Shown here piece by piece: positions 4,429 through 17,058 of a stretch of DNA of 22,908 nucleotides (the stretch's first letter is position 1; the number at the start of each line of letters is the position of its first letter). The position numbers and the translations under genes were made by a program. Where the stretch lies: the IMG/VR virus record IMGVR_UViG_3300015263_000790, positions 1 through 22,908 of that record; one strand, given 5' to 3'. Source of the DNA: a virus. The notes under the pieces were generated by a model. It saw nothing but the letters and a program-made list of their open reading frames with translations, searched no databases and was not told the DNA's origin.

Positions 4429-4764
4429 ATGAAAGATCAAATAAACATCAATGAGCAAGAATTAAGGGATATTTTAATTGAGGCCGTAAAAGAAGCGTAT
4501 AAATTTGATTGGACTGGTTGGAGAATTCCTATCTACATAGATGAACAAGGTGAAATATCAAAAGGATCTTGGTTAAATAATTCATCTTGGCAGCCAGGTA
4601 TTGAGGAATTGCCTATTACGGTTGAAACTTGGGAAATTCCTTTGCTTTATGATGATATCTATGATGATACTTCTTTTGAATATGAAGTTGAAGAAATGGT
4701 AGATTTCAAGATAAAACAACTTAGAAATTACTATGACGAAAACAAAGAATATATTATTACCTAG
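4429..4764 (+). CDS. Lone plus-strand acidic protein (moron-like)
   Basis: This encodes a 111-residue, strongly acidic protein with many Trp and Tyr (DWTGWRIPIYID, GSWLNNSSWQPG, ETWEIPLLYDDIYDD). No known domain was recognised. It is the only well-supported plus-strand gene in the window and sits between the tail module and the terminase genes, divergent from terS and convergent with the tail operon. It has its own promoter (4366-4397) and a terminator whose stem contains its TAG stop (4763-4784). This self-contained layout is that of a 'moron', a gene expressed independently of the late operon. An acidic protein of this size could be a DNA mimic or inhibitor, but nothing in the sequence proves it. 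Confidence 0.85.
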   Translation: MKDQININEQELRDILIEAVKEAYKFDWTGWRIPIYIDEQGEISKGSWLNNSSWQPGIEELPITVETWEIPLLYDDIYDDTSFEYEVEEMVDFKIKQLRNYYDENKEYIIT

Positions 4765-8778: not shown

Positions 8779-9011
8779 TACCCTTTTTTGTATTGATTGG
8801 CAAATTTAACAAAATCACTTCTTAAATCAGGCATTTCCATGCCATCAATAAACTGCTCCATTTCTTTTTCAAATTGCTTTCTTTCTTCTTTTGTTAATTT
8901 CTTGTATGCTGGAATTATAATTTCGCTTTGAACTTTCCAAATTTGCTCTTTAAGCTCAGAACAAACATTTTTAATTTGTTCGGCTGATTCTTTTATTTTT
9001 TTTTCATCCAT
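8778..9011 (-). CDS. Small helical protein between two tail genes
   Basis: This encodes a 77-residue, highly charged helical protein (KIKESAEQIKNVCSELKEQI; LTKEERKQFEKEMEQFIDGM). No domain was recognised. Both ends overlap the neighbours by one base in TAATG form, so it is translated in step with the large fibre-like and LRR-like proteins. Small proteins in this position can be fibre-assembly chaperones; here that is inference only. Confidence 0.8.
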   Translation of the reverse strand: MDEKKIKESAEQIKNVCSELKEQIWKVQSEIIIPAYKKLTKEERKQFEKEMEQFIDGMEMPDLRSDFVKFANQYKKG

Positions 9012-13318: not shown

Positions 13319-16123
13319 TTATCCTTGGTAACCTCTACGGTTATTCGTAATCCCTTTGCTGTTGCTGTAACCACCTTGTATAATTTTTTCGATTATTTTT
13401 CCTTGCATGTTTATTTTGGCTGCTAATTGGGGTAATTGCCCCAATAAATCTCCGTTTATTTCCTGTGGTTGTATGTTTTCTAATCTTGATTTTATCCCTC
13501 TAAGCTCATCTATCATTTCTTTATTATCTCCGGTTTTTTCTATTGAAATAATACTTTTTACCGAGCCTTTCAATAGATCGTTGTGTTTTCCTCCGTTTCG
13601 TAGAAATTCATGATACTGCTTGAATTGCTCTGGACTATCATAACCGCGCATACCTTTCTTGGATATGACCCCTTCGCTTCCTTCTAATAGCATTGGAATG
13701 CCTCCTTTCTTGTTTTCGTGAGAAACACCAGACAAATAACCTCTATCAAATCTACCGTATTTACTTGTCCCGTTCTGGGCGTTTACCGCGTCTATCGCTA
13801 TACCACCATCCCGAAGGCTTGCCGCGTATGTCTCGCCTGTTAGAGTTATTGCTCCGGCTTCTCCCAGGGCAATTAATGGGTTTCTTCCGCTTTCCAATAA
13901 TGAATTGAAGGTATTATAAAATGTTTGAATTCTTTGGCGCCTTTCTCTCCTTTGTTGTAATCGCTCTTTTCTTAATTCTTGTTTTGCAAGCTCCCTTTCT
14001 TCAAAGGCTAATTGATTTCTAAGGCCTAACCTTGCCCTTTCCTCCTGGGATGTTACCAATCTGTTTGTTGCGGCCGTTTCGTTTTCTAATCTCCTTAGTT
14101 TTCTTTCGTAGGCATTTTGGTCCAATTGGTCTATGAAGTTAATAGCTTTGGAAAAATCATCCCTAAGTTCTTTTATTTGCTTTTCTCTCTCTTGCTGTGC
14201 TAATATATTTAGCAATTCTTCCGCTTTTTCTTTTGATTGTTCTGCGCTTAATGTTCCAGCGGCTAAAGCCTGGTTAATTGCTAATATTTTTTGTTCTTGT
14301 TCGGTATAAAGTAAATTTGAATCTTTTGTTAAATCTGCCTGAAATTTTTGTTCCTGGCTTATTTTCTCCATTACCGGTAGTCTTGCATCTTCTATTTTTT
14401 TTCTTTCTCTTTCAGCTACTTTCGCTATTACTTCGTCTCTATGTGTTTTTTCTGCCTGCTCATTTACTTTTGCGGCTTCTTTTGCCCTTTCTTTTTCTGC
14501 TTCTTTTGCTTCGTTTAATAATTTGGTTAGCCGTTCGATTTGAAACAGAAATATAGTGGCTTTCTTACTTTCAAATCCATTGTCAAACTCTGTATTATCA
14601 ACTAATTCCCTTAAGTACTCTATTCTTTTTTCAATGGCCCCTATTCCTTTTGGGCCGGTAGCGTCTTTTGAAAGTCTTTGAAATTCTTCATTTATCCCAT
14701 TTAGTGCGGAATTCAATTTTGTTCTTTCATCAGTATTGAATATGTTTTCAGAAATTTGAAAAGTAAATGATTCTCCAAAAATTTCTTTAAACTGCGTAAA
14801 TCTTTCATTTACCTCTGTAATCGAACTTAAAGCACCTGTTAATTTATCAGATAAGAAACCAAATACTTTAGAAATTGGCCCTTGGCCCTCGTCTATTGTT
14901 CTAATTAATAACTTCCAAGCATTTGTAAGTCTTGTTTGTTTTGCTGTTAACGTCTCAACTGTATCAATGCGTTTTGTGTTATATGCGTTTTCAAAGCCTT
15001 TTGCTAGTTTTGGCAAAACATCAATAGCGAGTAACTCTCCTCGTTGGAGCATTTTTTCTAACTCAGCAGTAGTTTTTCCGGTAACATCCGCAACAATTTG
15101 CATAACCCCTGGCAAACGGTCTCCAAGCTGTCCACGGAGCTCTTCTGCTTGCAATTTTCCTTTGCTAAGTATCTGACCTAGAGCGCGTAACGCGCCTTGG
15201 GTGTCTTCCGTACTGGCACCTAAAACTGCCGCTGATTTTGTTACGCTATCAAACAATTCCTTTCCTTGTGAAAGATTAATTCCGGTATCCTTTAAAGAAG
15301 CGGCAAACTTGGTGTAATCCCTGGTAAGAGAATTAATTTCAATACCATATCTTTGGGCCAAATCTCTCAAAAACAACTGGCTTGCGTTGTATTCTGCGGT
15401 AGTTCTTGTAACTGTTTTAAGTGCTAGATTAAGGCTTTGAATTTCTTTAACCTCGTTGAATATATTTTTTGCTATTTGTATCCCAGAATAAAGACCAAAA
15501 GCACCAGCCAACTGAACAACTGCACGTCTTGCTATTCCGAATACCTTTGGATAATTACCTACATTAGCATTTAGTTTACCTGCTGCTATTTCAGCCTCCC
15601 TTAATGCATCCCTTTTTTTTCTAAGCTGTTCAGAAAAACGCCTTGCTTCACGCCTTGCCTTACGTGTGCTTAGATCCATTCTTTCTAATGCGGCAGCGTC
15701 AAGGTTAATCTGCGCTCTAAGCCTTTGAAGTGTGTTTATCTCAGATATTCTAAGCCTTTCTATTCTTTCTGTTTCTCGCCTTAACTCTTGCGTTGCTATT
15801 TTATCTTTGGCAATCGCCTCCCTTTCTTGGTTGGTGAGGTCAATGTATCTTTTTTTGGTTTGATTTAATTGTGTTCTTGCTGTTTTTGTTGTATTTAGTT
15901 CCCTGGTTATCGCTTTTGTCTCAGAAACTAACTGAGATAGTTTTCCGGTATCTATTTTGGGTGCTTTTAAAGCTTCTGATATTGCCTTCGTTAATTCTTT
16001 TGTTATTTCAATCATGGATTTGATTGATACCTCGTACCTCTTGTCTAATTCTTCAAATCCGCGGGCAAATTCTTTATCCTTCCCGTCAAAATTTAAAAAA
16101 TCACCATACCCAATTTTACCCAT
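13319..16123 (-). CDS. Tape measure protein
   Basis: This 934-residue protein sets tail length and helps DNA enter the cell. A long N-terminal coiled coil (about 1-190, rich in Arg, Glu, Leu) precedes a short hydrophobic segment (about 205-220). The typical tape-measure domain follows at about 240-390, with ALGQILSKGKLQAEELRGQL, RLPGVMQIVADVTGKTTAEL and LLAIDVLPKLAKGF. A second charged coiled coil spans about 470-760. Near the C-terminus, GYLSGVSHENKKGGIPMLL and EGVISKKGM match the end region seen in Bacteroidota tape measures. At the usual 0.15 nm per residue the tail would be about 140 nm. A TATATTTG box lies 4 nt before its ATG. Confidence 0.95.
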   Translation of the reverse strand: MGKIGYGDFLNFDGKDKEFARGFEELDKRYEVSIKSMIEITKELTKAISEALKAPKIDTGKLSQLVSETKAITRELNTTKTARTQLNQTKKRYIDLTNQEREAIAKDKIATQELRRETERIERLRISEINTLQRLRAQINLDAAALERMDLSTRKARREARRFSEQLRKKRDALREAEIAAGKLNANVGNYPKVFGIARRAVVQLAGAFGLYSGIQIAKNIFNEVKEIQSLNLALKTVTRTTAEYNASQLFLRDLAQRYGIEINSLTRDYTKFAASLKDTGINLSQGKELFDSVTKSAAVLGASTEDTQGALRALGQILSKGKLQAEELRGQLGDRLPGVMQIVADVTGKTTAELEKMLQRGELLAIDVLPKLAKGFENAYNTKRIDTVETLTAKQTRLTNAWKLLIRTIDEGQGPISKVFGFLSDKLTGALSSITEVNERFTQFKEIFGESFTFQISENIFNTDERTKLNSALNGINEEFQRLSKDATGPKGIGAIEKRIEYLRELVDNTEFDNGFESKKATIFLFQIERLTKLLNEAKEAEKERAKEAAKVNEQAEKTHRDEVIAKVAERERKKIEDARLPVMEKISQEQKFQADLTKDSNLLYTEQEQKILAINQALAAGTLSAEQSKEKAEELLNILAQQEREKQIKELRDDFSKAINFIDQLDQNAYERKLRRLENETAATNRLVTSQEERARLGLRNQLAFEERELAKQELRKERLQQRRERRQRIQTFYNTFNSLLESGRNPLIALGEAGAITLTGETYAASLRDGGIAIDAVNAQNGTSKYGRFDRGYLSGVSHENKKGGIPMLLEGSEGVISKKGMRGYDSPEQFKQYHEFLRNGGKHNDLLKGSVKSIISIEKTGDNKEMIDELRGIKSRLENIQPQEINGDLLGQLPQLAAKINMQGKIIEKIIQGGYSNSKGITNNRRGYQG

Positions 16124-16151: not shown

Positions 16152-16463
16152 TTACTTAGGTGTTTTAGCTTTCTCTTTTAACTGGTTGAAGGCAATATAC
16201 CACTCAATTATTGTGAATTGTTCAGCTGACTTGTTAAATTCTGATTGAATAATATTGTTTATTTCGTGAAAATTCTTTGTTGTGGATATATCAACCTTAT
16301 CAAAAAGGTTAATTAATGGGCGTTTTTCGTAGAGGTATTTTTTTGGTTTTTGAACATCCTCAATAGCTTCCTCTAATTCTTCCAAAGCTATTTTTGCTTC
16401 GTTGATTATGAATTCTATACCTGTTTCTTTTGACGGGAAAAAAAGTTCAATATCCCTTTCAAT
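16152..16463 (-). CDS. Tail assembly chaperone, frameshift extension (GT-like)
   Basis: This frame is open from the A10 run at 16463-16472 to the stop at 16152, 28 nt before the tape measure. It has no ATG; the first common start codon is a TTG at 16385. Read from the slip site it gives 103 residues: ERDIELFFPSKETGIEFIIN, then an acidic helix (ALEELEEAIEDVQK) and a helical end (EQFTIIEWYIAFNQLKEKAK). It is exactly one base behind the 16415-16858 frame. Two overlapping frames directly upstream of the tape measure, the second reached by a -1 slip, is the classical gpG/gpGT chaperone arrangement. The fusion would have 235 residues. Confidence 0.75.
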   Translation of the reverse strand: MERDIELFFPSKETGIEFIINEAKIALEELEEAIEDVQKPKKYLYEKRPLINLFDKVDISTTKNFHEINNIIQSEFNKSAEQFTIIEWYIAFNQLKEKAKTPK

Positions 16464-16858
16464 TTTTTTTTTATCGAGGAAGTATTTTGCTTAATTTCGT
16501 TTATAGTCATTAAATCACAAATGATTTTTGACTTTTGTTCAACTGGCATAAACTGAACGTCCTGGCCATTTATTTTTGTTACCAATGCGGAATAGCTGAA
16601 TAACTCCCAGTTGTTCAATTGTATTGCATTGTAGTAAGATTGGTACAAATTTCCTAGCTCTGTAATTAACCGGTCTTTCATGCCTTCATTGGCGTAGTTA
16701 ATTAATTGCTCGAGCTTTTCCGGTATTTTTGTTGGGTCGTTTGAACCCCAAATTTCGGTAGTAGTATACATACAGAATTCGTTCCAATTAATCATACCTC
16801 CTTTGGTATAATTTGCGTCAACATGTTCTATTTGTACAGCAGATATGTTATCCCCCAT
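16415..16858 (-). CDS. Tail assembly chaperone, first frame (G-like)
   Basis: This encodes 147 residues with a helical core (EKLEQLINYANEGMKDRLIT, ELGNLYQSYYNAIQLNNWEL) and no membrane segment. It is the first of two frames directly upstream of the tape measure gene, the usual place for the chaperone that coats the tape measure during tail assembly. At codons 130-132 it reads AAA AAA AAA. Ribosomes staying in frame finish with 15 more residues (LKGILNFFSRQKKQV), and those slipping by -1 enter the 16152-16463 frame. Its ATG at 16858 lies inside the end of the membrane-protein gene 16828-17058. Confidence 0.75.
   Translation of the reverse strand: MGDNISAVQIEHVDANYTKGGMINWNEFCMYTTTEIWGSNDPTKIPEKLEQLINYANEGMKDRLITELGNLYQSYYNAIQLNNWELFSYSALVTKINGQDVQFMPVEQKSKIICDLMTINEIKQNTSSIKKKLKGILNFFSRQKKQV
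16463..16472 (-). other. A10 slippery site, probable -1 frameshift signal
   Basis: On the minus strand ten A follow GAT. In the zero frame they read ATA AAA AAA AAA TTG, containing the heptamer A AAA AAA in the correct phase for tandem -1 slippage. After slipping, the frame reads AAA ATT GAA AGG and stays open for 103 codons. Polymerase slippage on A10 could give the same product. Confidence 0.7.
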
Positions 16859-17058
16859 ATTGGAAAGAAATCTATAATATTAATACCAAAAATCAAATGA
16901 ACTAAAATTGTGTATATTATTGATACCCAAAAAGATGTACATAATTTGCAGTCTAGTATTTTGTAAAAAAAACGGGGGCAATACATTCTACACCAATCTA
17001 AAAGCCCCCATTTCTCAAATGATAATAAAATGAAACCACACAAAACAAACCAATACAT
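16828..17058 (-). CDS. Small membrane protein, two helices
   Basis: This encodes 76 residues with a hydrophobic start (YWFVLCGFILLSF), a central LLDWCRMYCPRFFYKILDCK and a second hydrophobic part (SFWVSIIYTILVHLIFGINI). The motif DCKLCTSFW recalls the 'C-x-x-C-x-x-F-W' element of DUF1360-like membrane proteins found in phages; function is unknown. Size and topology would also allow a holin, but no endolysin lies nearby. The ATG shares one base with the stop of the 47-residue gene upstream (TAATG), and the end overlaps the chaperone gene by 31 nt. Confidence 0.7.
   Translation of the reverse strand: MYWFVLCGFILLSFEKWGLLDWCRMYCPRFFYKILDCKLCTSFWVSIIYTILVHLIFGINIIDFFPIWGITYLLYK

Follow-up and report, generated by a model that had tools for sequence, protein, structure and literature searches.

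A phrog_8914-family chaperone gene of Bacteroidota siphophages probably carries a conserved slip site in the middle of its coding sequence, a run of A on which the polymerase would stutter so that one gene supplies both a short and a long form of the protein. According to the proposed mechanism, the host RNA polymerase would produce mRNAs with one A more or fewer at the run, and the gene would yield a short form consisting of the N-terminal domain (~135–150 aa) together with a long form (~235–260 aa). Phages need the short and the long tail chaperone in a fixed proportion, and ribosomal -1 frameshifting is the textbook route to such pairs, unlike the polymerase to which the comparative evidence points here. 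An element composed of a hairpin and ten A is kept in about a hundred distinct phages, including phages of Bacteroides, Parabacteroides, Alistipes, Croceibacter and Elizabethkingia as well as those of environmental Bacteroidota. If the proposal is true, phages would have one more way of making a G/GT pair, next to ribosomal frameshifting and separate genes, and the element would be one of nascent RNA that is conserved across phages of several host families.

One gene across two frames

The window, the whole stretch of 22,908 nucleotides that was analysed (IMG/VR virus record IMGVR_UViG_3300015263_000790), contains the following features around the junction:

13319..16123, minus strand: tape measure protein of 934 aa, matching phrog_18891 and many other tape-measure families (best 4e-64)
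16152..16858, minus strand: whole slip-joined gene, with a predicted long form of 235 aa
16152..16463, minus strand: -1 frame part of the predicted long form, 103 codons, beginning ATT GAA AGG
16415..16858, minus strand: zero-frame ORF (ORF1) with an ATG start, encoding the putative short tail-chaperone form of 147 aa
16463..16472, minus strand: candidate slip site, a run of ten A read as KKK in the zero frame (AAA AAA AAA after ATA)
16828..17058, minus strand: gene for a small membrane protein upstream of the chaperone, with an overlap of 31 bases at the chaperone start

The initial annotation had described two frames directly upstream of the tape measure, the second without an ATG, joined at ten A into a fusion of 235 residues. 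On re-reading, its coordinates, its codons, the ten-A run, the missing ATG and the fusion length were all correct, and its placement of the frames is borne out by a tape measure that begins 28 bases past the chaperone stop, an order of genes that is the same in the relatives. The zero frame crosses the run as ATA AAA AAA AAA TTG at 16474-16460 and ends in a product of 147 aa, made of 132 shared residues and a 15-residue zero-frame tail (LKGILNFFSRQKKQV). The -1 frame lies one base behind ORF1 and stays open between 16490 and its stop codon at 16152; it holds no ATG and no internal stops, with GC contents by codon position of 0.41/0.21/0.29, and a -1 slip would give the predicted fusion of 132 + 103 = 235 aa.

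The window has no second run of ten A or T besides the one at the junction, while dinucleotide shuffles of the window contain a mean of 5.3 such runs, so that a ten-A run taken alone is unsurprising. Such ten-base runs are depleted in the window and the remaining one sits exactly at the junction; it is homology, not run length, that makes the junction more than chance. A7 matches were likewise fewer than expected from the dinucleotide shuffles (44 vs 71), as if long runs were selected against. The second-longest run, an A9 on the minus strand at 8996-9004, lies at the very start of a 77-aa ORF (9011-8778, MDEKKIKES...).

The homology is to a single tail family. The 235-aa fusion matches phrog_8914 with an E-value of 4e-13 (residues 43-233 vs profile 43-248 of 250), the halves taken from the raw genome match the profile consecutively (N half 41-154, -1 frame half 134-248), and in tblastn the fusion aligns through the junction with single-frame Bacteroides phage proteins. 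In the family alignment, the slip site coincides exactly with three invariant lysines, K130-K131-K132, and a nearly invariant I133. Since the fusion matches one family across the junction, the two frames read as one protein, as the initial annotation had claimed, and on these alignments they almost certainly represent one gene. That they should be two separate genes, each with its own start, is scarcely credible: the second frame does offer a TTG at 16385 as a potential start of a 77-codon ORF, but this codon falls within the conserved region, the homologues are single proteins across the junction, and no relative was found to have a separately started second gene, save for the automatic split of one phase-flipped copy in phage BF8P1. 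The initial annotation had named separately started frames in relatives as evidence against a joined product, and that split record is the one instance found.

The identification of the protein as a tail chaperone is suggested by synteny, by annotation and by the logic of two products. Database records name the family hypothetical, virion structural or tail assembly chaperone, and none of the phrog_8914-family records examined mentions slippage. In phage B124-14 the homologue is placed between small upstream genes and the tape measure, and several relatives have a similar small gene upstream of the chaperone; the small upstream membrane protein shows a weak likeness to Pfam DUF1360, below the cut-off in the window (0.09) and above it in the relative L004 (3e-4). 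No Pfam family matches the chaperone itself. As the -1 fusion is not a letter-for-letter translation, an in-frame homologue (L098) was modelled in its place with AlphaFold2 (pLDDT 94.8). The model had zero matches in the PDB at E ≤ 0.001 and three significant ones in BFVD, all of them unnamed proteins of 32–36% identity. One of these, A0A088C3C2, is a viral protein of 158 residues that is 36% identical and covers part of the model; it could be a split-annotated copy.

The window is the most diverged member of the family, with at most 22% identity. Single-sequence scans of IMG/VR gave zero matches with the window fusion and just two distant loci with the window tape measure, and on these poor returns the collections contain no close relative of the window, so that alignments were needed to find relatives. 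Among 399 host-family genomes, phrog_8914 was found at full length once, in a prophage, and otherwise as two weak, partial matches. The nearest tape measures to that of the window are in Leeuwenhoekiella phage Arctus_1 (42%) and in Polaribacter phages. These phages fill the chaperone slot with proteins unrelated to that of the window, as in a mosaic tail module. Arctus_1 and Polaribacter P12002L/S, which also lack a long A run, were therefore rejected as comparators.

The A run in relatives

The first locus search, which was seeded on the VKKKI motif, returned 91 loci, 89 of which showed A9-A11 at the junction at first look; the remaining two (L081 and L082) had been mislocated, and L081 has A10 at the aligned place. 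Because of that seed, a scan using only the N-terminal half, and thus blind to the junction, was added, and all 80 of its 80 loci carry A9-A12 at the junction. Run lengths over 218 loci, a count that includes the window and some contigs fetched twice, were A10 in 197, A9 in 16, A11 in four and A12 in one. The non-redundant set comprises 123 relatives and the window; its locus counts are phylogenetically non-independent, with a median pairwise protein identity of 42%. A frame-blind scan for the DNA pattern found A10 in 88 stretches, nearly all of this gene, A11 in one (this gene, split), and A9 in none of this gene.

The usual layout of the family is one uninterrupted frame of ~250 codons running through the A run. 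In the phages of Alistipes, Parabacteroides, Elizabethkingia and Croceibacter, in B124-14 and in a gut contig, the junction codons read GTC/ATC AAA AAA AAA AT(A/C) in frame, with ten A. The window departs from this organisation, being out of phase by one A, and the other out-of-phase members are BF8P1, L102, L223 and the clade of L248. The gpG/gpGT layout proposed by the initial annotation therefore holds for the short and long frames of the window, while most relatives encode the full length in one frame. It had also regarded a corrected A count that put both frames into one phase as grounds for abandoning the slip; one phase is indeed what most relatives have, yet they keep the slip site at the DNA level.

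Evidence for that retention comes from codon usage. The lysine codons at the slip site are AAA in 267/267 cases, against 777/1637 (47%) elsewhere in the same genes, and even genes that use almost only AAG keep AAA AAA AAA at the site (elsewhere AAA is 0/19 in L059 and 0/12 in L046). This difference suggests that selection acts on the nucleotides and not only on the lysines. Beyond the run, the shifted frames of the relatives close early, at a median of 2 codons in the -1 frame and 0 in the +1 frame, against 10 in controls, which is partly explained by the conserved Ile-Asp/Glu codons. ATA, which creates an immediate +1 TAG, is over-used after the run (50/87 vs 472/1351, p 4e-5). With such early stops, a slip in either direction would give the relatives a clean short form ending just past KKK. 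Taken together, the run is very probably a conserved functional slip site. Phase variation by replication slippage was considered as another role for it and rejected, because the run length is too constant (A10 in about 88 copies, A11 in one, A9 in none) and the hairpin would be left unexplained.

Since the long form is already in frame in most relatives, it is the short form that slippage would add there, in the manner of dnaX. As the majority of these genes have the appearance of an ordinary single frame, the second product would escape annotation and any frameshift predictor that searches for overlapping frame pairs. In lambda the short:long ratio is 30:1; with the polarity that the relatives have, the long form would instead predominate, which counts against the proposed explanation.

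The upstream hairpin and the probable agent of slippage

A hairpin directly before the run was scored when it had at least 5 bp and a free energy of -5 kcal/mol or lower, lay within 30 nt before the run, and had its last pair 1–3 nt from the first A. Such a hairpin was present in 84/89 non-redundant relatives, against 170/1555 (11%) control windows, and its last paired base lay at -1 from the first A in 53, at -2 in 28 and at -3 in three of the 84. The mean MFE was -10.0 kcal/mol at the site and -0.7 to -5.8 elsewhere along the gene, and synonymous-codon permutations with the protein held fixed gave a mean hairpin z of -1.9. The stems vary by clade (GACCGC/GCGGTC, ACCGA/TCGGT, GGTGGCC/GGCCACC, CTGAGT/ACTCAG), and in a fixed register they show 32 double-sided changes vs 15.8 when shuffled, with 0/500 shuffles as high. 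The valine codon before the run is GTC in 74/80 cases and in 280/1362 elsewhere, as expected if that codon belongs to the stem. No Rfam family matches the element of hairpin and A run. A terminator was rejected as its identity, because a hairpin followed by A, not U, is none on either strand.

In the enlarged set the hairpin accompanies A10 in 101/105, A9 in 0/15, A11 in 0/2 and A12 in 1/1 relatives, giving 102/123 non-redundant relatives in total; the window has none before its A run (0.0 kcal/mol). The association of A9 with hairpin absence is suggestive, with 3 supported pairs and a sign test p of 0.25. The two designs, A10 and A9 (e.g., L013, L235, L250 and L283), may work differently.

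A hairpin that ends directly before a tract of about the length of the RNA:DNA hybrid (9-10 bp) suggests slippage by the polymerase. In the A10 relatives, the hairpin would stand at the upstream edge of the ~10-bp hybrid and stimulate the slip, and polymerase slippage is likely in the hairpin-bearing relatives. Slippage of transcription on stretches of at least nine A/T is also well known (PMC5009743, PMC3711429), and runs of 9 A/T slip efficiently in vivo (PMC5009743); the A10 of the window falls within this class of about nine or more A/T in a coding frame. The closest parallel is IS1447 (IS3 family), in which A9 after a stem-loop slips by +1 and -1 at ~16% each (PMC6211511); as in the relatives, a stem-loop is followed directly by an A run in the middle of a coding frame, and slippage separates the products, as it would in the phages. 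IS1447, however, encodes a transposase and one direction of slip gives its functional fusion, whereas the chaperone long form is usually in frame. The Roseiflexus IS630 element has a stem-loop adjoining the slip tract U5C5 (reviewed in PMC5009743), which resembles the relatives in a nascent-RNA hairpin 5′-adjacent to the tract, though the tract is heteropolymeric and the carrier an insertion sequence. Thermus thermophilus dnaX, a bacterial replication gene, likewise gives a short and a long form by homopolymer slippage (PMC5009743). No report of slippage or frameshifting in the tail chaperones of Bacteroides or Flavobacterium phages was found among open-licence papers, a weak indication of novelty. 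Further hidden products may lie at other long homopolymers that a hairpin precedes.

The family resembles lambda gpG/gpGT in its predicted short and long products with a common N-terminal domain, a place upstream of the tape measure and similar domain sizes. It differs in its tract of 9-12 A, where lambda has a heptamer with ribosomal stimulators, and its usual polarity is the reverse; sequence kinship between the two is undetectable. The window does have the lambda-type layout, a common N-terminus with an extension in the -1 frame, as far as its predicted products go. Frameshifting of the lambda kind, in which the ribosome would be programmed to slip by -1 on A AAA AAA and polymerase slippage would be only incidental, has several points in its favour. 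The zero frame ends in the short form, with the heptamer in phase, both in the window and in the clade of L248 (GTA AAA AAA AAC); an upstream hairpin is missing from the window and from fifteen A9 relatives; and lambda-type frameshifting of tail chaperones is widespread (PMC5009743). We consider such a frameshift doubtful for the family nonetheless. In most relatives the long form is in the zero frame and a -1 slip would truncate it, and the run is held at nine or more A, beyond the need of a heptamer. Ribosomal stimulators are absent as well, downstream structure not rising above background (mean -6.0 vs control -6.95) and an SD-like motif occurring in just 6/124 loci, and a hairpin abutting the run on its upstream side would presumably be covered and melted by the decoding ribosome. 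What the initial annotation mentioned as an aside, namely that the run of A could act through polymerase slippage, is thus the better-supported mechanism for the family, given a hairpin and run without ribosomal stimulators.

For the lineage of Bacteroidota siphophages as a whole, a fairly probable picture is one of hairpin-stimulated slippage on A10 with the long form in the zero frame, the hairpin having been lost in the A9 lineages and in the window and the phase flipped in a few members. In the window, ordinary decoding would give the 147-aa short form, and to reach the long form either the transcript would have to gain one A or the ribosome would have to slip by -1 on A AAA AAA. Without a hairpin, the window must depend on the A run alone, and slips by polymerase and by ribosome are both possible there.

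The phase of the window

Phages of Bacteroides, Parabacteroides and Flavobacterium, such as B124-14 (YP_005102488) and FPSV-S2 (QCW20388), carry proteins that share the family with the window over almost their whole length, in the same slot before the tape measure, with 9-11 A at the same codons; they have one continuous frame, and the window is shifted by one A. We lean towards the flipped phase of the window being real. An alternative is that one A was lost in assembly or sequencing, the true sequence having A11 and a single frame (ATA AAA AAA AAA ATT GAA). This is compatible with the best explanation and does not exclude it, as the slip site would still be real. The relatives are for the most part in frame, with few phase changes, mostly at single tips (BF8P1, L102 and L223; 5 changes on the tree), and A11 occurs in frame in the same setting in FPSV-S2 (GTA AAA AAA AAA ATC) and in L221. 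However, only 1 of about 88 copies in the frame-blind scan is off by one A, so assembly errors at such runs appear to be uncommon.

A stable, selected flip, moreover, exists in three separate metagenomes. L248, L251 and L265 from IMG/VR have A9 at a junction near 2893 in flipped phase (GTA AAA AAA AAC), with a zero-frame product of 147 aa. L248 and L251 diverge by about 6%; upstream of the run they differ by 25 synonymous and 3 nonsynonymous codons in the zero frame, and downstream by 16 synonymous and 1 nonsynonymous in the -1 frame, against 2 and 15 in the zero frame. This pattern of substitution indicates that the -1 frame of the clade is translated and under purifying selection, which would make the flipped phase a workable one. 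Loss of an A in the window is accordingly regarded as the less likely reading. A true inactivating frameshift, by which the gene would be broken, finds its one argument in a frame that is split relative to most homologues, and it is highly improbable: coding periodicity persists in the -1 frame, whose match to the family runs through to the end, a phage is expected to need its tail chaperone, and the flipped relatives include the cultured phage BF8P1 besides the clade under purifying selection.

BF8P1 (L007, OP172661.1, 801-1554) is a cultured Bacteroides phage that has A11 and is 98% identical to B124-14 in this protein; its record splits the gene into two hypothetical proteins, WAX06396.1 and WAX06395.1. 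Its A11 is either a sequencing error or the mark of a viable phage that depends on slippage. L005 and L006 carry, at 4602-4610, a run of nine T in an unrelated gene that precedes a tape measure. The two copies are identical, so that the coding frames are indistinguishable by comparison; the run is followed by two long overlapping open frames (ends 4839 and 4880) and is possibly another slip site.
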